DNA from: a virus
Length of the DNA: 64,000 bases
Strand: one strand, 5' to 3'
IMG/VR virus record: IMGVR_UViG_3300007508_000607
Coordinates: 1-64,000 of that record
The translations under genes were made by a program, and so were the position numbers. Under the pieces are notes generated by a model, which did no database searches, was not told the origin of the DNA, and was given only the letters and a program-made list of their open reading frames with translations. Position 1 is the first letter of the stretch; the number at the start of each line of letters is the position of its first letter. Below, in pieces: positions 8,438-29,832 of this stretch.

Positions 8438-10060
8438 ATGGCGTATGTCAAACCTGGAGTTGAAATAACTCAAGTACAAAACACGGCTACACCGGTTTTA
8501 ATTGCTCCCGACTTAGAAGCAGTAGTTGTTGGTAAAGGGTACTATTGGCAGGACCCTACTCTTGATTCATCAGAGTACTCTGTCAGTTATTCTGGAGCCA
8601 GCATGACTATTAACTTAAGTGACATAAACTCAGACTTTAACTCATTAGTTTCTGTAAATGACGAAGATCTCATTGTTGTTGACCTTTATGGTTCTGCAAC
8701 AGTAGGGCAAGGAACAGAAGTGAAGCATCTTGTAAAAGATACTGATTGGAGTTATTCTAACGGTGATGTTACTCTTGTTTCTGGTATTACCACGCCAGGC
8801 TCAGGAAGTGCTTATGAACTTGCTTCTGTAAAGATTGGCTTTAGGGCCGATAATAGCGAAGCTATGGGATTTAAGAAAAGTTTAGCAAGTCCGGACGATA
8901 TTAAAGACGTGTTTGGTGGGGAAATAGTAAGTTGGAACCCACTAGCATATGGTGCGAAGTTAGCACAGGACAATGCATCTGCATCTGTTAATACTTATTG
9001 TATAAGCGGCGTATCAAGTATTTCCACAGAAATGTCCAGTGCAAGATCAGCACTAGCTTTAGAAGAGGTTTATGCTATAGGTGTTTTAGATAGTAAAGCA
9101 GGATCAAGTGGTTGGAAGTCTCATGTAGAGGACTATTCAGACGCAGTAAATAAAAAAGAGAGAATTGTATTCTTGACGGATGACGTAGTATATGGTGACT
9201 ATGAGGGGAACAGTACTAGTGAAAAAACCACTATTGCTGAAACTTTAAGAACTAATAATGCAACATTCCAATCAAAAAGAATGTTTATGGTTCATCCTGA
9301 TGTAGCATATACGGACAGTGGATCACGACACATATCTACAGCACACCCTGACTGGATTGACGCAAGTTTTAAAGAGCACACTGGATTTGATATGTCTAGC
9401 CGAGGTGCTTATGCGTTATTCGCAAAGCCGGAGTCTGTTGGCAATAAAAATTATAAAGTAGGAGATAAAATCACTAGCTCTGTACATGCTGAATTAGTTT
9501 CAGCAGGGTATCATAGTGTATTTGTTTTTTCTCCTATCCCTGGTTTTTATTTTAATGCAGCAAATGCTGGGTTATGTGTAGGAGTTGCTCCAGAAGCACC
9601 CTTATCTAATGTTCCTATCTCAGGAATTTCTAGGACTTACGGATCTCAGGATTACTTTACAGAGGCTCAAATGAACACCATGGCTGAAGGCGGTACTTAT
9701 ATTATGACTCAACTTTCTAGCTCGGCTCCCATTGTATCTAGGCATCAAACTAGTACCGATGTGACGAGTGTAGCTAAAAGAGAGTTAAGTATTACCAAAG
9801 CTTTAGACTATACTGCCAAATTTTTAAGGAAGGGGTTAAATCCTTATATTGGTAGACACGTAGTAACACCTGCATTTTTAAAAATGTTAGAAAGTGTTCT
9901 TATTAGTCAAGGGCTATTCTTAGTACGAGCGGGAGTATTAAACGACTTGCAAGTTGCAAGTGTAAAACAGGATGATGCTAATCCAGATACTATTCAAGTA
10001 GAACTTAGTCTCTTGGTTAAGTATCCTGTTAACTACATTAAAATAAAAATGGTATTTTAG
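8438..10060 (+). CDS. Tail sheath protein
   Basis: This 540-residue contractile sheath subunit opens with MAYVKPGVEITQ, the typical N-terminal arm. Its C-terminus, about residues 450-540, carries the conserved sheath fold: FLRKGLNPYIGRHV, an ISQGLFLVRAG helix, and a final strand ending YPVNYIKIKMVF. The ATG at 8438 is chosen over the upstream in-frame GTG or ATG codons because GGAGG lies 8 bases before it. All Trp codons are TGG. Its presence identifies a myovirus-type contractile tail. The tail tube gene follows after 10 bases. Confidence 0.9.
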   Translation: MAYVKPGVEITQVQNTATPVLIAPDLEAVVVGKGYYWQDPTLDSSEYSVSYSGASMTINLSDINSDFNSLVSVNDEDLIVVDLYGSATVGQGTEVKHLVKDTDWSYSNGDVTLVSGITTPGSGSAYELASVKIGFRADNSEAMGFKKSLASPDDIKDVFGGEIVSWNPLAYGAKLAQDNASASVNTYCISGVSSISTEMSSARSALALEEVYAIGVLDSKAGSSGWKSHVEDYSDAVNKKERIVFLTDDVVYGDYEGNSTSEKTTIAETLRTNNATFQSKRMFMVHPDVAYTDSGSRHISTAHPDWIDASFKEHTGFDMSSRGAYALFAKPESVGNKNYKVGDKITSSVHAELVSAGYHSVFVFSPIPGFYFNAANAGLCVGVAPEAPLSNVPISGISRTYGSQDYFTEAQMNTMAEGGTYIMTQLSSSAPIVSRHQTSTDVTSVAKRELSITKALDYTAKFLRKGLNPYIGRHVVTPAFLKMLESVLISQGLFLVRAGVLNDLQVASVKQDDANPDTIQVELSLLVKYPVNYIKIKMVF

Positions 10061-13804: not shown

Positions 13805-14008
13805 CTAGTTTTTTGCTTGGAAGTATGATCCCATAGCATCAACTACTCCTTGACCTGCGATATACGAAGGTACAATTGTAGTAATAGCTCCAACTAAGTT
13901 TTCAGCCATTGCAGGATCTAGTCCTGCCCAGTCTACGATAAGTACGGATAAAACTCCGCCAAATGCAACCCATAGCTTCCTACTTGATAATTTCTCTTTC
14001 CAATTCAT
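13805..14008 (-). CDS. Holin-like small membrane protein
   Basis: The protein has 67 residues. It starts NWKEKLSSRKLWVAF, a charged N-terminus typical of several phage holin families, then has one clear hydrophobic segment at about residues 13-28 and a weaker one at 38-55. Holins form inner-membrane lesions at lysis. No endolysin is seen nearby and the gene lies in the replication-side block, so a holin role is likely but not proven. It overlaps the upstream gene by 29 bases and is followed by an intrinsic terminator. Confidence 0.6.
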   Translation of the reverse strand: MNWKEKLSSRKLWVAFGGVLSVLIVDWAGLDPAMAENLVGAITTIVPSYIAGQGVVDAMGSYFQAKN

Positions 14009-14273
14009 TTATTTTGCTTGGTTTTTTGTTTACATGGTATGTCTTATTATCAACCTGTCTAACAGCTTTTCCTGTATCTTCCAGTAATTGACAAATAGAA
14101 CAATTTATAGGTCCTCGGCATTCATCGTAATTGTCCCAGTTATGAAATATTTGATCAAACTTATCTCCATAATCAGGACCGACGGGACTTTGAGTATTTC
14201 TAATTTCGCCAAAGTCCTTGCTTTGAGATCTTTTTTGCCTACCATCATCTTGTTTAATTGAGTTTATGTTCAT
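13980..14273 (-). CDS. Cys-containing small protein next to the E1-like gene, unknown
   Basis: This 97-residue hydrophilic protein has a central CRGPINCSIC cluster (three Cys in ten residues) that could bind a metal or act as a thiol carrier. Basic segments flank it. It lies 20 bases downstream of the E1-like gene on the same strand, so it is probably part of the ubiquitin-like cassette. I recognise no family. A role as a substrate, adaptor or E2/E3-like thiol relay is speculation. Confidence 0.55.
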   Translation of the reverse strand: MNINSIKQDDGRQKRSQSKDFGEIRNTQSPVGPDYGDKFDQIFHNWDNYDECRGPINCSICQLLEDTGKAVRQVDNKTYHVNKKPSKINELEREIIK

Positions 14274-14293
14274 ACTTTAATATAATCAATATT

Positions 14294-14887
14294 TTAGAAA
14301 TGAGCAATATAATGTTGAGGATTTTTATCTCCTCTGACCCAGTTTAACAAATACTGAGCTCCAATACTACTTACTATTCTATTTCCAAATTGTATTATAT
14401 TGTTTTCAAACTCCCACTGTCTTTGACAGCTTCCATCCTCTACGTCATCTTTCGGTAAAGTTTTTAACATTACTTCAAGAGTATTTTTTTTATTCTTTGT
14501 GAATACAGCGATATCTCTTCCTTCGCTTCTCATATCCATCCAATATACGTCTTCATTTTTATCCACATAATTAAATAATAATTTTCTGAATTTTGAGTTA
14601 TCGACGCAACATACTATTCCTTCATATCCATTAAGTTGATCTTCCGATTCTATACGAGATGTTATTGACCCAAATCCATATCTTGCAGACAATGATTCAG
14701 ATTTCTCATCCATTATATCCTCCATAAAAAAGTTTTGGTAGGATAAATTTTTATTTTCTACTGTATCGTCATCTGCAAACGTAAATGATACGTTGTCAGA
14801 AAACTGACCGTGAGTATCTAAATTGTATAAATGCTCGGCAAGCCAACTTCCTATTCCACCTGCTCCAACTACCAGTACACGTTTCAT
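14294..14887 (-). CDS. E1-like (ThiF/MoeB/HesA superfamily) adenylyltransferase
   Basis: The protein has 197 residues. It starts with the nucleotide-binding VLVVGAGGIGSWLAEHL, then FADDDTVENKNLSYQNF, the conserved D-x-D/VE-NL-Q block of E1 enzymes that adenylate the C-terminal Gly of a ubiquitin-like protein. IVCCVDNSKFR follows, and DGSCQRQWEF gives a candidate catalytic Cys. The two CxxC zinc pairs of MoeB/ThiF are absent. The ATG at 14887 overlaps the stop of the JAMM gene (TAATG), so the start is well supported. It presumably activates the neighbouring Ubl at 15317-15574. Confidence 0.88.
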   Translation of the reverse strand: MKRVLVVGAGGIGSWLAEHLYNLDTHGQFSDNVSFTFADDDTVENKNLSYQNFFMEDIMDEKSESLSARYGFGSITSRIESEDQLNGYEGIVCCVDNSKFRKLLFNYVDKNEDVYWMDMRSEGRDIAVFTKNKKNTLEVMLKTLPKDDVEDGSCQRQWEFENNIIQFGNRIVSSIGAQYLLNWVRGDKNPQHYIAHF

Positions 14888-15315
14888 TAATTTATCTCCA
14901 TTTCTATTGGTTCCCACCTACGTTCAGACTCATTTCCATCATAGTAGTATGCCTTTGTTTCTTTAAATTTAGGTGAGTGTATTATATACACACCAGTATA
15001 TCCAGCACCCTGTAAATCTGTAATAGAAGGAATAGGTTTATTATTTGGGTGAGAATGCATTATCCCAATAAAGTCATTCTCTGCTTTAGGAGACACGTGA
15101 GTAGTCTCTCGAAGCATACCCATAAATTCATTCGGGTCCGGTATATAATGTACCTCCTTGTTCTCTGTACTAACGTTTGTTAGCGGTATAAACTTTTCAC
15201 ACTTCCATGAGTTTCCTTGTTTTTTACCGACCATAGCCCCGACGATCTCGTCAGGGCTATCATCTGCATAACTTGTCATTTCATAGAGTGTATCTTTTGA
15301 AATGTTAAAGTTCAT
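14887..15315 (-). CDS. JAMM/MPN (JAB) isopeptidase-like metalloprotease
   Basis: This 142-residue protein has the complete JAMM zinc signature: an upstream Glu in DEIVGAMVG and then HSHPNNKPIPSITDL (HxH...S..D). JAMM enzymes remove ubiquitin-like proteins from targets or trim their C-terminal tails. Here the neighbouring Ubl already ends in Gly-Gly, so deconjugation is the more likely job. The ATG at 15315 lies 1 base after the Ubl stop, and the stop overlaps the E1 start. The three genes form one coupled unit. Confidence 0.9.
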   Translation of the reverse strand: MNFNISKDTLYEMTSYADDSPDEIVGAMVGKKQGNSWKCEKFIPLTNVSTENKEVHYIPDPNEFMGMLRETTHVSPKAENDFIGIMHSHPNNKPIPSITDLQGAGYTGVYIIHSPKFKETKAYYYDGNESERRWEPIEMEIN

Positions 15316-15316
15316 T

Positions 15317-15574
15317 TTATCCACCAACTAATGCATTAGCCATCATAATTTCTTCTGCTTCCATTATGTCTTCTAAAGAAATAGTATCAGGAGTTTTATG
15401 CTGCCCGTCTACGTAAGCCCAACGTCCAGTTGTTTCTGACTCGTACTTGATTTTTTCTAATGCAGCTACAGGCATTCCTGACCATTCGTCGTGCCCCTTT
15501 GTAGATACAATTTTTATTGTGACAGGAGTCAACTCTCTTGATAAATCACTTCCGTTATTTTTGTTTTCGCTCAT
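15317..15574 (-). CDS. Ubiquitin-like protein ending in Gly-Gly
   Basis: This 85-residue protein has an unstructured 14-residue tail, then a beta-grasp-like order: strand VTIKIVSTKG, a helix around MPVAALEKI, strand GRWAYVDG, and a final strand running to NALVGG. The protein ends exactly at the double Gly, the form E1 enzymes adenylate without prior processing. The fold assignment rests on this pattern and on the adjacent JAMM and E1 genes rather than on strong sequence identity to ubiquitin. Phage or host targets are unknown. Confidence 0.8.
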   Translation of the reverse strand: MSENKNNGSDLSRELTPVTIKIVSTKGHDEWSGMPVAALEKIKYESETTGRWAYVDGQHKTPDTISLEDIMEAEEIMMANALVGG

Positions 15575-15606: not shown

Positions 15607-17679
15607 TTATAATGTGTGAATGGCACTTGCGACTAAAGCGTCGTTATGAAGTGCATATATTCTATTAACTAACTTATCCATTCCTACCTGACTTGAAGAT
15701 TTGTCTACGATACATATATACTTTCCGTCAGGGAATGAATATACTCCGCACTGTGGGTCATTAGTATTTATCTGCTCCTTACCGCCCGTATCTATAAAGT
15801 AGTTTCGTAAGGATCCTTTAATAAGATACCCAGTTTTTGACTCCCCATCAGACATTATTACTGTCTCTTCTTCAATGCCAAATGTTTTCTCAGTCTCCAC
15901 CAGTAGTTCTTTACTTTTCTCTATAGCATCTATAAAAGCCTTCTTACCAGAAGAGATAATACCTTTTATATCATCAACCTCTACCCCTTCCACTGATTTA
16001 CCATCTAAAAGAGTATTAACCACATCAAGCATAGATCCCTGTCTAGATAACCTTATAATTTTCTGGGTATTTTTTACTCTGTACGACGTATCATTTATAA
16101 CAATGTAGTTGATATTTTTTCTTCTCTCTAGAGGCAGTTTTAAAGATACATTCGTAAAGTCAAATTCATCCCTAACATTTATATCTACACCTATTTGTAA
16201 GTATGTATGCATTTTTAATGAACATTTACTGACAGACTTTATAAAGTAGTCAAAATCATCTTGTTTAGTAAAACACAGACCCCTCTCAATAACAGGTTCT
16301 ACCTCATCAGAATTTATTCGTTTATCGTTTACATACATTCTAGTAGTAGATATTCCAATGCTATTTGTACTTACCCTTTTCTCTACTTTAAAAGAAACTT
16401 CTCCAACACTCCCACTTCCTTCTGTATTTGAGACATAGGATAAAAATATTGGTAGAGCTTGATCAAAGTTAATATCATCTAAGTTGTATGCTTTAGACAA
16501 AGTACTTAAAACTTTATACGGCAATCCAGAGATATCCGATTTTAGCACTTGGTTCTCGTACTCTATTTTATCCTCTGAGTACAGAACACCATTCAATTTT
16601 AATGACTTTCCTGGTATCAATAAAGTATTTAATCTATCCTTTATTTTCTCACGCAGTTTTTCCTGTGATTTTATAGCAGCCTGCTCTCTTGCAGTTCTTT
16701 GTAAATCCCGTTTAGTAATAAGATTTAAAGAATTATTATCTAAAAATTCTACGTGATTGTCGTCCCTACCTCTCAGATAGTTATCAAGAATTTTAATATT
16801 AGGTAATGCTGGATCCAAGTCTGTAAAAATCAAATTTCCAACTGGCACATGGTTTTCGTATCTTTGGTAGTACCCTCTCCTAACGCTATCACTACAAAAG
16901 TAATATCTACCAACGTCTACGTAATTATATGAAGGGTCCGAGTGCGGTATGACTTTTAAAGAAACACTAGTATCGGTACTCCACCTACTATGCTCTCTCT
17001 GCTGTGAAACAAATAGTCTGAAGTTATCTTTTTCTAACACATTTGTTATAAAACTTAGCTTTCTATTGTCGTATAAAAGCCTTTTGTTTTTCTTATCAAG
17101 GCATATTGTTGACTCTTTACCACCTTTGAACACTTCTTTTAATACCAACTCTATATCCTTTTTGTCTATATTCATTCGGATAGATGACCAATTATCCATC
17201 AAGTAATCTTCACATGTAGATACTACATCCTTTACGTTTTTATGTACTTTGTTCGATACCCCAGGTACCTCAATATCGTCCAATATACGTGATAGTACAT
17301 ACATAGACTCAAAATCTGTTTCTTGTATATTTTCAATGTATAGGTTATCTCTGTATGTTATCTTTAACTTGAAAAGGTTTTTCTTATCTCCCCAGTGCTG
17401 GTAATGTCCACCGTCCTCAAATTCCTTATCATTTATTTTTTGTATATTAACTTGGGAGCCGCAGCCAGATGATACTATTACAGAAGATTTACGCACCTCA
17501 TATTCTAAGACATTAAGTATATCTACCGCACTGTCTTTGTAATATTTATTACCTACTGCTGCAGTCATACCTCTTTCTAAATCACTAACTTTTGAATTAA
17601 TATCTTCCATATCTTTGTCGGATAGACCTAATTCATACAACCCGTTTATGGCGGGTAGTAAATGTTGCGTTGTATTCAT
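15607..17679 (-). CDS. Large unknown protein upstream of the Ubl/JAMM/E1 genes
   Basis: The protein has 690 residues with no signal peptide or membrane segment. A charged coiled-coil-like segment lies at about residues 325-350. The C-terminal 80 residues form a compact domain (GYLIKGSLRNYFI, then YICIVD, then a helix ending in ASAIHTL). Trp codons are all TGG. It lies 32 bases upstream of the Ubl gene on the same strand, so it is probably in the same transcript. I recognise no family. It could be the conjugation target, an E2/E3-like partner or an unrelated early protein. Confidence 0.6.
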   Translation of the reverse strand: MNTTQHLLPAINGLYELGLSDKDMEDINSKVSDLERGMTAAVGNKYYKDSAVDILNVLEYEVRKSSVIVSSGCGSQVNIQKINDKEFEDGGHYQHWGDKKNLFKLKITYRDNLYIENIQETDFESMYVLSRILDDIEVPGVSNKVHKNVKDVVSTCEDYLMDNWSSIRMNIDKKDIELVLKEVFKGGKESTICLDKKNKRLLYDNRKLSFITNVLEKDNFRLFVSQQREHSRWSTDTSVSLKVIPHSDPSYNYVDVGRYYFCSDSVRRGYYQRYENHVPVGNLIFTDLDPALPNIKILDNYLRGRDDNHVEFLDNNSLNLITKRDLQRTAREQAAIKSQEKLREKIKDRLNTLLIPGKSLKLNGVLYSEDKIEYENQVLKSDISGLPYKVLSTLSKAYNLDDINFDQALPIFLSYVSNTEGSGSVGEVSFKVEKRVSTNSIGISTTRMYVNDKRINSDEVEPVIERGLCFTKQDDFDYFIKSVSKCSLKMHTYLQIGVDINVRDEFDFTNVSLKLPLERRKNINYIVINDTSYRVKNTQKIIRLSRQGSMLDVVNTLLDGKSVEGVEVDDIKGIISSGKKAFIDAIEKSKELLVETEKTFGIEEETVIMSDGESKTGYLIKGSLRNYFIDTGGKEQINTNDPQCGVYSFPDGKYICIVDKSSSQVGMDKLVNRIYALHNDALVASAIHTL

Positions 17680-17707: not shown

Positions 17708-18103
17708 TTACTCAAATAAGTTTGATTTTTCCAAGTTTTCTTCGTCCATTTTACACGATGTCATAACTAAAAAGTTGTCGTTATCCGGGTATACGCTGAC
17801 TTCCTTGCCGATTAATTCATTTAAATCAGAGATACCATAGTACCTCATTAATTTAGCTAGAGAGCTATTTGGCGATATATTACCTTCATGGTTTAATGAC
17901 AGCCAAAGCCCCTGGATTCTCTTATTTCCTTTATTATCTTCTGTCCATACATCAGAAATTTGAAAGTTTTTTCCGTCCGGCTGCTCCACAGAAAATTTAA
18001 TTTTTTCTGAGGTCTCGCCACGCACGTCCACTTCTACTTTTTCTGCGTTTGTAACAGTAACTTTTCTTAGCTGACTTCCTACTTTTAAATTTAAAAAACT
18101 CAT
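17708..18103 (-). CDS. Probable OB-fold-like phage protein, unknown
   Basis: This 131-residue, strand-rich protein has an N-terminal MSFLNLKVGSQLRKVTV, a central ISDVWTEDNKGNKRIQGLW, a helix SSLAKLMRYYG, and an acidic tail ending in NLFE. Size, strand pattern and acidic tail resemble single-strand DNA-binding accessory proteins, and the DUF669 protein at 24224-24655 ends similarly in SLFE. Assignment is tentative. A 95-110-base leader with a promoter-like box lies upstream. Confidence 0.5.
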   Translation of the reverse strand: MSFLNLKVGSQLRKVTVTNAEKVEVDVRGETSEKIKFSVEQPDGKNFQISDVWTEDNKGNKRIQGLWLSLNHEGNISPNSSLAKLMRYYGISDLNELIGKEVSVYPDNDNFLVMTSCKMDEENLEKSNLFE

Positions 18104-26341: not shown

Positions 26342-27097
26342 TTAAAGCAACAACGGTTCTGATAGTGGTGCTACTAAAAACAAACTTTCAAACCTTGGAA
26401 AGGTATTTTTCATCAATTCTAATACTATGTCAGGAGTGTTAGTCCTAGAACTCAAGTGTCCAAATGCAATCCATTCTACTTTTTCTAGGTTAACATCATT
26501 TTCTATATACTCTGATATTTGATGGTTACCTAAATGTCCGAAAGGACCTGATATTCTCATCTTAAGTAGCTCATCATATTTTTCATAATCGTCCAGCATC
26601 TGCTGGTCATAGTCAGCCTCTAGAAAGTATGCGTTACAAGACTCTAAAGCTACTCTCATTACTTTTGATATACTACCTGAGTCAGTTAAGTATCCAAACT
26701 TTTTATTTGAGGTAGTATCTGTAATTGTATATCCTAAACTAGCTTTACTGTCGTGTTTAGTAGTATATGCTTTTACTAGCATATCTCCTACTTTAATCTC
26801 ATCCCCACCTCCTATGAATTGTACATCACAATTTTTAAATATTTTTTCCTTTGCAATGAATGATTCCTCTGGTATATAAATAGGGCATCCTTGTTTCCTT
26901 CCTACAACCCCTGCTCCTGCAACATGATCATGATGTTCATGCGTTATAAAAAGGGCTGATATTTCTAAGTCATCTTCTTCAGATGCCTCAAGTATTCTCT
27001 TGTAACTAACTCCTGCGTCTATTAGCAAAGTAGCCTCCGAAGAGGCCACTTTACAACAATTACCAGAGCTGCTACTATACAACGGGTGTATTTCCAT
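26342..27097 (-). CDS. Metallo-beta-lactamase fold hydrolase (YycJ/WalJ-like)
   Basis: The protein has 251 residues. HEHHDHVAG is the dinuclear zinc motif HxHxDH. LIDAGVS comes before it, LTDSGSI gives the bridging Asp, and FGHLSSRTN gives the final His. The opening YSSSSGNCCKV is characteristic of the YycJ/WalJ group, which includes DNA exonuclease-like enzymes. It overlaps the primase stop by one base (TAATG). A role in DNA processing is inferred from its position. Confidence 0.85.
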   Translation of the reverse strand: MEIHPLYSSSSGNCCKVASSEATLLIDAGVSYKRILEASEEDDLEISALFITHEHHDHVAGAGVVGRKQGCPIYIPEESFIAKEKIFKNCDVQFIGGGDEIKVGDMLVKAYTTKHDSKASLGYTITDTTSNKKFGYLTDSGSISKVMRVALESCNAYFLEADYDQQMLDDYEKYDELLKMRISGPFGHLGNHQISEYIENDVNLEKVEWIAFGHLSSRTNTPDIVLELMKNTFPRFESLFLVAPLSEPLLL

Positions 27098-29832
27098 TAT
27101 AAATAACCTGGTTTTACTATTATTACTCGTACAGACCTACCGCGCATTTTTCTTGACTGTACTGTTTTATTATATATCATTCCATTCTCATAAAGCTCAT
27201 GTATTATAGCTTTCTTTGTGTGAGTTAAACTTTCATTTGAAGCTCTTAAAAATGACTGTATTTCTTTAAAAGCTAAGTTAACTACTAAGTACCCTACAGG
27301 TTCCTTAGTCTCTTTGTGCGATCCCCAGTACCCGATTATAGGTGTATGGTTATTTTCTTCGACATCCTCCATATAATTTGGTAACATCCTTACCTTGTTG
27401 CTGGACATTAATTCCTGTAAACCTTTTAAAAATCTATCAGATGCCAACTCTTCTGCAGCTTCCGATGCTACGTCCATGATTTGTACATCAAGAATACGCA
27501 TAAAAGTTTCTTGCGCTTCTATTGCCTTTTTCTTACTCCAAAGAAAGTCCGATATAAATTTAAAACTTGTTGCTAACAATGAAACATTTCTAGCTATTCT
27601 AATATCGTTTGACTGCCCGCCTACTTTCTTATAAAAATGATCCATATTATCTTGCATTACTTTATTTAATAGTACAGGTGCTACATTAAATAAATGGTGC
27701 ATATATCTAGCCGTAAATCCTGGGTAGAATTTTTTCATCTCTTGGATTCTTTTACCACGAACCATGTCTTTATACTTTGTGTTACACGTAACTGGTATTA
27801 ACCTTGCAAGATTTGAAGCTTCACCGGACGGTGTATCCTCACCAGTGGATGCTAGCCACCCTTTGACAACGAATGTTTTTGCTAGTTCCATATTAGCATT
27901 CATCCTTGACCTAGCTGTGTTATCTGCGTAGTTTTGCATAAGGGTTAAGGCACCATCAAAAGCTCCCGGCTTATTGAACATTCTCTTTTTAAAGTCATCA
28001 ATCATAAATAAAGAATCTTTCATAAAATACCCTATCCTCCCCAAGGAATTAGCTGTGGAACTCCAAGTCGGTACAGAGTCAAACTCACCGTAAAAGTTTT
28101 GGAATGCTTGCATTGTATATGACTTTCCTGTTCCTGATTCCCCTCTAACAAAGTAAGTAAACTTTGTTCTATCTCCTTCTAAAAACGGGAATAAGATTGG
28201 TAAGAATGTAAAGGATAAAGCACCATAGGTGACTTCTTCATTTACAACTTTTATTAAATCCTCTTGTATATGTTTTTTTAATGCGATAAAAGTTTCATCG
28301 TCTATTTTTTGTAGATCTAAACACTCCGCAAATTCTTCCCCTTCTAAGCTAACCAACGTGTCGTCATTACTTCTTATACCGTCTTTATCTACAATAACTG
28401 ACGGACTCATATACTTGTACGGATACTTATCGCTGCCCTTTAAATCATTAAATCCAAACTGCTTTAGTATGAATACAGGCTCTGCATCTGCATACTTTTG
28501 AATAGCAGTTTTAATAGATTGTATATTATCTATTAATAGTTTATTTGGCCCTAAAGCCTTATAGATGAAAGCTTTTAATTTCTCGTCATTAGAAAAGTCA
28601 TCCGAAGAAATTTCGAAGTCTATATCATCCTTCTTCTTCTTTATAACCCCCTCAAATAATCTTTTGTCATACTCAGGCATGCCTGTACTAATTGTAGTAT
28701 CTTTAGTTATATCCATTGTAAAACTTGAAAGTTTTTTTATTTTTGTATCTTCCTTACCTGGAAGTCTTTCGTAATATGAGTTCCCTCTCTGAAAAAGAAA
28801 ATCTGATTTATCTAAAGCATTTATATCAACTTCTTTTTCTTGGGTGGACCAGTGGTAGAAAGCTATAGGACTTTTTGCTCTTCCAATAGCCGAGCATTTT
28901 TGAGAACAGATGCTACCATACTTTCCGTCTTGAAGCTTTTCACACGTTATAGGAAGGTAACCTTCTCCCTCTTCACGCATCTTTGTCTTCATAACTCCTA
29001 TATTCTTTTTTGTCAACTCCGAATCATAGTTCTTCATTCTGCTAAAGAAGTTTTGTGTGGCGTATCTTTCAGCCTCCTTCCCCATATTAGTAAACATGTA
29101 CCCAACTATTTCGTTAAAAAAGTTAGGGGACTCTTCTTGCTCTAAACACGTATCCCACATATTTTGCAAAGCTTCGCATTTTTTTAGAGGTTCCGTATAA
29201 GGGGCTGACTCATTAGAAAATGACATAGTATCAGCGTAGTCAATAGTACTTACTGATAAATTATCTATAAATTCACTAAAGACTTTAGACTTATGATGAT
29301 ACCCGTTCGGCCCTTTTACGAGATTTCCAAAAGATCCTTTATTTACTTGAGTTTGTTTAGGGAATATCTCCCACTCAATCCCGTTTGCGGTAGGGCGCAT
29401 ATTTGAAAATATACTTTCAAAACCACTCTTTATGATACTAGACGGAACCGGATTTTCAAAGAAAACCCATACATGGTAACCTTTATTTCCTGAAAACTCA
29501 ATATAAGATGGTATCCCCTTATTGCTAAGAAGTTTTTTTGAAATCTCTGCCTGTTCTAATAACTTATCCTTCCAGTCTTCGATATTAAAACTTTCACTAC
29601 TCCACACTGATTTAGTTAGGTCTATGTCTAAGCAAGCCCATTTAATGGTATTCTCTTCCGGCTTCACTTGGTACAATCCTATTGTCTGTCGTCCAGTCAA
29701 ATGTGCTTCTATTATATCTTCATCAATAGGCTCTTTTACTGGAATATAAGAACCTTTTGTCTGCTGTATAGCATAGACATCGTCCCTGTGGACGAAAAGT
29801 TTTTTAAATATATCTGTACTAATTTTTCCCAT
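27097..29832 (-). CDS. AEP-type primase fused to a superfamily 3-like helicase
   Basis: The protein has 911 residues. Residues 30-215 are an archaeo-eukaryotic primase domain of the LigD/TOTE type: TIGLYQVKPEENT, WACLDIDL (metal-binding DxD), and SGNKGYHVWVFF. A Cys-containing segment lies at about 295-315 (CEKL, CSQKC), which is a possible zinc site. The C-terminal half is an ATPase: GESGTGKSYTM (Walker A) and LFMIDDF (Walker B). It should synthesise primers and unwind the fork. It has at least eleven TGG and no TGA Trp codons. It overlaps the endonuclease gene upstream and the MBL gene downstream. Confidence 0.88.
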   Translation of the reverse strand: MGKISTDIFKKLFVHRDDVYAIQQTKGSYIPVKEPIDEDIIEAHLTGRQTIGLYQVKPEENTIKWACLDIDLTKSVWSSESFNIEDWKDKLLEQAEISKKLLSNKGIPSYIEFSGNKGYHVWVFFENPVPSSIIKSGFESIFSNMRPTANGIEWEIFPKQTQVNKGSFGNLVKGPNGYHHKSKVFSEFIDNLSVSTIDYADTMSFSNESAPYTEPLKKCEALQNMWDTCLEQEESPNFFNEIVGYMFTNMGKEAERYATQNFFSRMKNYDSELTKKNIGVMKTKMREEGEGYLPITCEKLQDGKYGSICSQKCSAIGRAKSPIAFYHWSTQEKEVDINALDKSDFLFQRGNSYYERLPGKEDTKIKKLSSFTMDITKDTTISTGMPEYDKRLFEGVIKKKKDDIDFEISSDDFSNDEKLKAFIYKALGPNKLLIDNIQSIKTAIQKYADAEPVFILKQFGFNDLKGSDKYPYKYMSPSVIVDKDGIRSNDDTLVSLEGEEFAECLDLQKIDDETFIALKKHIQEDLIKVVNEEVTYGALSFTFLPILFPFLEGDRTKFTYFVRGESGTGKSYTMQAFQNFYGEFDSVPTWSSTANSLGRIGYFMKDSLFMIDDFKKRMFNKPGAFDGALTLMQNYADNTARSRMNANMELAKTFVVKGWLASTGEDTPSGEASNLARLIPVTCNTKYKDMVRGKRIQEMKKFYPGFTARYMHHLFNVAPVLLNKVMQDNMDHFYKKVGGQSNDIRIARNVSLLATSFKFISDFLWSKKKAIEAQETFMRILDVQIMDVASEAAEELASDRFLKGLQELMSSNKVRMLPNYMEDVEENNHTPIIGYWGSHKETKEPVGYLVVNLAFKEIQSFLRASNESLTHTKKAIIHELYENGMIYNKTVQSRKMRGRSVRVIIVKPGYL

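Follow-up and report, generated by a model that had tools for sequence, protein, structure and literature searches.

The window analyzed here, i.e., a stretch of 64,000 nucleotides of the IMG/VR virus record IMGVR_UViG_3300007508_000607 (sequence analyzed: the record of 64,007 bases), harbors a cassette encoding a ubiquitin-like protein (Ubl), a JAMM metallopeptidase and an E1-like enzyme (hereafter E1). The cassette is real and widely conserved among viruses; it is a variant of the prokaryotic Ubl systems and includes a previously unrecognized fourth component, a large protein referred to as BIG. We consider it probable that these genes provide virus-encoded, E1-driven and reversible activation and conjugation of Ubl during replication. 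To our knowledge, Ubl tagging in bacteria has so far been known mainly as a weapon against phages; if the proposed function is correct, viruses of microbes themselves use reversible protein tagging. Conservation of the set extends to at least dozens of uncultured viruses, its Ubl matches no family in the libraries searched (Pfam, PHROGs, NCBIfam and PADLOC) and the partner protein with an invariant cysteine is new. The targets of viral Ubl tags, and Ubl conjugation without a recognizable E2, become directly testable with this cassette. The four genes are the following:

15607..17679, minus strand: BIG, 690 residues, cassette partner with a C-terminal motif that holds the invariant Cys656 (codon 15714-15712)
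15317..15574, minus strand: Ubl, 85 residues, predicted beta-grasp protein with a mature C-terminal Gly-Gly (codons 15325-15320)
14887..15315, minus strand: JAMM/MPN+ metallopeptidase, 142 residues, with E23, H87, H89, S97 and D100
14294..14887, minus strand: E1-like adenylyltransferase of the ThiF family, 197 residues, with the candidate catalytic Cys154 (codon 14428-14426)

The first-pass annotation of this DNA had described three coupled genes, and the open reading frames (ORFs) on the minus strand are as it described them: Ubl is joined to JAMM through TAA-A-ATG (GTT GGT GGA TAA A ATG), and the JAMM stop codon overlaps the E1 start codon as TAATG at 14887. BIG is located on the upstream side, 32 bases from Ubl. 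The Ubl, JAMM and E1 genes are under purifying selection, with dN/dS values of ~0.06-0.08 in comparison with a relative (L005) that is 81-84% identical.

Ubl, JAMM and the E1-like enzyme

The Ubl ends in NALVGG, directly followed by TAA, and is the only one of 244 ORFs with 40 or more residues in the window that ends in Gly-Gly; this mature end, as first annotated, is found in all 14 close orthologs. A beta-grasp fold, the check set beforehand for the 85-residue protein, is predicted. The AlphaFold2 model, based on 14 orthologs, has a mean pLDDT of 80 and the strand order b-b-a-b-b-a-b, and the top 50 Foldseek matches of this model in the PDB are mostly SUMO, NEDD8, ubiquitin and UBL domains, at a probability of mostly 0.9-1.0 (0.96-1.0 for the best ones) and a TM of about 0.45-0.5. 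This assignment comes from structure prediction and not from sequence profiles, i.e., comparison of the Ubl profile using hhalign yielded no significant similarity to ubiquitin or to PRTRC_C (E 0.86 for the latter, which also gave no NCBIfam match).

Residue counts among the viral Ubls, JAMMs and E1s, here and below, rest on the matches listed from a scan of viral contigs with the E1 alignment (best 80 of 262 contigs). Twenty-six of 45 viral Ubls stop exactly at Gly-Gly and 18 carry 1-3 residues beyond it, while one (L066:4756-5463) resembles a ubiquitin fusion precursor, its ORF continuing for ~150 residues past the Gly-Gly. The Ubls with additional C-terminal residues display the pattern expected of Ubl precursors and a processing JAMM. 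The possibility that the Gly-Gly is a by-product of the JAMM Shine-Dalgarno sequence (GGTGGA) was rejected: the Gly-Gly is kept in L019, L022 and L024, where JAMM lies 0.8-0.9 kb downstream, and the glycine codons are therefore not retained merely as a ribosome-binding site.

The JAMM protein matches PF14464 at 48.5 bits (Pfam cut-off 25), and its active site is complete, in line with the full motif annotated earlier. The catalytic residues E23, H87, H89, S97 and D100 are invariant across 14 orthologs, and HxH..S..D is present in all 69 viral JAMMs. The best NCBIfam match, at 61.7 bits, is desampylase NF041370, below its cut-off of 130; there are also matches to PHROG tail-protein families and weak matches to PADLOC JAB models.

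The E1 matches PF00899 at 52.1 bits (Pfam cut-off 28.1) and carries GxGGxG, DxD, K62, D96 and C154. The last of these is the cysteine noted in the first-pass annotation; as part of an SCQ motif it is found in 75 of 75 viral E1s. The best NCBIfam match is PRTRC_ThiF (TIGR03736), at 47.7 bits with a cut-off of 144.75, while NF047750 yields 17.6 bits (cut-off 450) and PADLOC E1-E2 models match weakly.

From these components a reaction sequence may be outlined. The E1 would adenylate the Gly-Gly end of Ubl and would probably hold Ubl on Cys154 as a thioester, from where Ubl would pass to lysines of target proteins, either directly or through the invariant C-terminal Cys of BIG. JAMM would remove Ubl again, or trim precursors in those relatives in which the Ubl extends past Gly-Gly. 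BIG itself may be a transfer enzyme, a ligase or the main target. The targets may be viral or host proteins of the replication stage, with BIG as one candidate, as suggested by the replication and nucleotide genes around the cassette.

Conjugation is supported by the linkage of the four families in two distant virus groups (see below). Several observations weigh against it: no E2 or E3 was recognized in the set, the best Foldseek E-value of the Ubl model is modest (5e-3), and the E1 lacks an N-terminal arm. In MoeB such an arm provides an Arg in trans. At the position of MoeB Arg73, within N-L-x-R-Q, all 74 readable viral E1s have a Tyr, a proportion that is biased upward because the matches were chosen in part by a YQN pattern, while alignments show Arg at this position in known E1 relatives. 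With the arm missing and Tyr in place of Arg, the ATP chemistry of the viral E1 may be altered.

The main rival is sulfur transfer, where the E1 would form a Ubl thiocarboxylate as the sulfur donor for tRNA, a nucleotide or a cofactor, and JAMM would trim or recycle the carrier. MoaD, ThiS and CysO are sulfur-donating carriers of this kind, while Mec+ and QbsD trim or recycle the carrier. Membership of the E1 in the ThiF/MoeB superfamily and the ability of small, Gly-Gly-ended beta-grasp proteins to carry sulfur would fit such a role, as would the presence of JAB proteins in some thiocarboxylate operons (PMC1779556). We nevertheless regard sulfur transfer as unlikely, given that the E1 has no rhodanese domain, that neither cysteine synthase, ThiG, MoaE, a desulfurase nor a tRNA thiolase was found among the window proteins scanned (a subset of all ORFs), and that the strict linkage of the cassette is to BIG, not to a metabolic enzyme.

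The weak PADLOC matches of JAMM and E1 could also reflect counter-defense, i.e., JAMM would strip the tags attached by a host Bil, Bub or CBASS system, with Ubl and E1 acting as decoys. Ubl-type conjugation in bacteria supports anti-phage defense (PMC10097602, PMC11153139), which lends this explanation some plausibility. It is, however, difficult to reconcile with a complete Ubl, a catalytic-type E1 and BIG all being under purifying selection, with a location in a replication operon and with conservation of the set in a probably archaeal virus group, for which Bil or CBASS may not be relevant. That the virus owns both the tag and the activating enzyme argues against mere counter-defense, which we consider quite unlikely.

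BIG, a partner with an invariant cysteine

The first-pass annotation recognized no E2. This statement holds for the known sequence families, but it overlooked BIG, a partner with an invariant Cys that always travels with the set and adjoins Ubl in every window-like relative. The most conserved part of BIG is its C-terminus (YICIVDK..QVGxD..VNRxxALxND), where 67 of 68 family members have the motif cysteine and the remaining one is a split ORF. The best matches of BIG are three viral proteins of 416-452 residues, and Foldseek returned no fold match in the PDB.

The C-terminal part of BIG is predicted, at low model confidence, to follow the order a-b-b-b-b-Cys-a, which, together with a single invariant Cys, would suit an E2-like role. 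Pfam, a PDB sequence profile and Foldseek gave no support for an E2 domain in BIG, and such a domain is hypothetical. Profile comparison of BIG with E2-D and UBE2D2 using hhalign was not significant (0.026 at GPICIDN/GSICLDI). We tentatively raise the possibility that BIG is a previously unrecognized Ubl-transfer enzyme, either an E2 analogue or an E2/E3 hybrid, whose invariant Cys would take Ubl from the minimal E1. The set would then be a complete four-gene Ubl-conjugation system, used by phages and probable archaeal viruses independently of host E2s.

Distribution among viruses

A scan of viral contigs with BIG identified 23 loci, about 13 of which are distinct beyond the window type; these phages share the gene order that the first-pass annotation proposed to seek. 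The order BIG-Ubl-JAMM-E1 is seen in every complete BIG locus examined, sometimes with an additional ORF between Ubl and JAMM. Nearly all of the window-like phages carry a sigma factor close to the cassette, and for this reason their hosts are probably bacteria. All four genes are visible at 41 of 75 E1 loci, where in many loci of a second virus group the DNA stretch ends before Ubl and the loci of this group were counted without de-duplication.

This second group (L071 and L073-L117, e.g., L111:2808-8836) is found mostly on contigs of 80-97 kb. Its loci encode a Ubl ending in ...TPAIVGG, a BIG relative of ~400 residues, E1, JAMM and usually a TCP-1/cpn60 chaperonin, i.e., the four families are reshuffled with respect to the window. 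The Ubls of the two groups align over the whole domain to Gly-Gly (hhalign E 3e-10); a match between their BIG proteins is seen at the C-terminus (hhalign E 6e-6). Because the loci encode the chaperonin and a protein that combines a match to the TFIIB zinc ribbon with a helix-turn-helix domain, these are probably archaeal viruses, perhaps magrovirus-like. A ThiF/MoeB E1 is listed among the most prevalent auxiliary genes of predicted archaeal viruses (RaFAH, PMC8276007) and is probably the E1 of this group; the passages found in that paper report the E1 alone and describe no Ubl, JAMM or BIG partners. No description of the Ubl-JAMM-BIG set was found in the literature searched, which did not include the 2017 magrovirus paper and a Bil biochemistry paper.

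Contigs of bacterial genomes yielded no BIG locus when scanned with BIG and six loci when scanned with E1, mostly on small contigs of metagenome-assembled genomes; one of the six (L118) looks viral, with a sigma factor, PolA and a gene that resembles a tail-type neighbor in the window. Among 50,697 records of cultured or annotated phages there was no match to Ubl, JAMM or BIG.

JAB and E1-like proteins are also encoded by two related phages, a crAss-like Kolpuevirus of Bacteroides cellulosilyticus (L127:1412-6466) and bajarodcaudo virus 1 (L125:1526-6424), together with a protein of 250-260 residues whose N-terminus appears beta-grasp-like by eye. These genes may constitute a third viral Ubl system and may offer a model for laboratory work.

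Known systems and genomic setting

The nearest known kind is the PRTRC system, also named operon type 6d (Iyer 2006, PMC1779556), but the window cassette does not belong to it. Both combine a small Ubl with a terminal Gly, a JAB peptidase and a standalone ThiF-type E1 whose C-terminal region contains a Cys, and both are found on mobile elements. PRTRC systems are characterized by E2-D, a JAB that carries an N-terminal domain (PRTRC_A), a Ubl with a GxKG end and an Arg in the N-L-x-R-Q motif of the E1, whereas the window cassette has BIG instead of E2-D, a Gly-Gly end and a Tyr. A degenerate or ordinary PRTRC-type system carried by a phage could be considered, since PRTRC_ThiF is the best NCBIfam match of the E1, and E1, E2-D and JAB of the PRTRC type are carried by two phages with a tail sheath of the window's family, Vibrio phage D69 and Salmonella phage Arash. 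Yet the score of that E1 match is far from its cut-off, no match to PRTRC_C or PRTRC_A was found for the window cassette, and none to E2-D (PF14460/TIGR03737) in BIG or the other neighbors scanned, where profile comparison was also not significant. In a phylogenetic tree, the viral and PRTRC E1s are split with a support of 100/98, with long-branch warnings, so that the viral E1s appear to form one clade apart from PRTRC. A PRTRC-type system of this kind is very improbable.

A PRTRC-like set with E2-D, a PRTRC_A-type JAB and E1 is found on a plasmid (L037), and phage copies of the PRTRC type in D69, Arash, Bacillus phage KLEB27-3 and Acinetobacter phage ME3; the sets of Arash, D69 and KLEB27-3 are weaker family matches than that of the plasmid. 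In D69, three tandem Ubl-like repeats ending in GTKG (L012:385-1176) are located upstream of E2-D, JAB and E1, which is a phage-borne poly-Ubl of the PRTRC type. In Arash, the annotation lists E1 and E2-D among the structural proteins.

Archaeal sampylation (SAMP, UbaA and HvJAMM1) also combines a Gly-Gly-ended Ubl, a single E1 and JAMM; we know of no E2 in this system. The window cassette differs in that its JAMM and E1 are far below the equivalog cut-offs, its E1 has neither the N-terminal arm nor the Arg, and its genes form a viral operon that includes BIG. Bil and type II CBASS Cap2/Cap3 share the logic of Ubl-type conjugation with JAMM, but their E1s are larger and their E2s are fused or separate, and the window proteins give only weak partial matches to them. 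The phage lambda pair gpK (JAB and NlpC) and gpI (Ubl) is another phage-borne JAB and Ubl combination, from which the cassette had been distinguished at the outset. This distinction is borne out: there is no NlpC-JAB fusion beside Ubl within a tail operon and no gpI C-terminal domain, while an E1 is present and the genes are found in a replication operon.

The cassette is surrounded by replication and nucleotide genes, i.e., PolA, a sigma factor, a B12-dependent ribonucleotide reductase, RecU and primase. A replication rather than tail setting, as first proposed, is therefore correct for the immediate surroundings, but a divergently transcribed sheath gene and the tail-type genes that follow it end only ~3.2 kb from the 13980 edge. 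The span originally assigned to the cassette, 13980-15574, holds the three genes but takes in a 97-residue ORF and leaves out BIG. Two flanking genes are of interest:

13980..14273, minus strand: small Cys/His-rich protein, 97 residues, with an H-x-W...C...C-x2-C pattern, possibly zinc-binding, optional member
17708..18103, minus strand: conserved protein upstream of BIG, 131 residues, with equivalents in L005 and L010

The 97-residue ORF is located downstream of E1 in the window, L005, L010, L036 and L061 and is absent after E1 in L019 and L020. The 131-residue protein is found at the same place in L005 (94% identical) and L010 (48% identical); it is transcribed in the same direction as BIG and may have a role in the cassette.

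The tail sheath of the window (8441-10060) is closest to those of Vibrio phages D69 and D181 and Salmonella phage Arash; the Ubl systems of D69 and Arash are of the other kind, PRTRC. The primase (27097-29832) matches the AEP-TOTE domain of TOTE conflict systems. The ribonucleotide reductase of L005 (L005:2350-5331) contains an intein-like insertion that is not found in that of the window (993 versus 664 residues).
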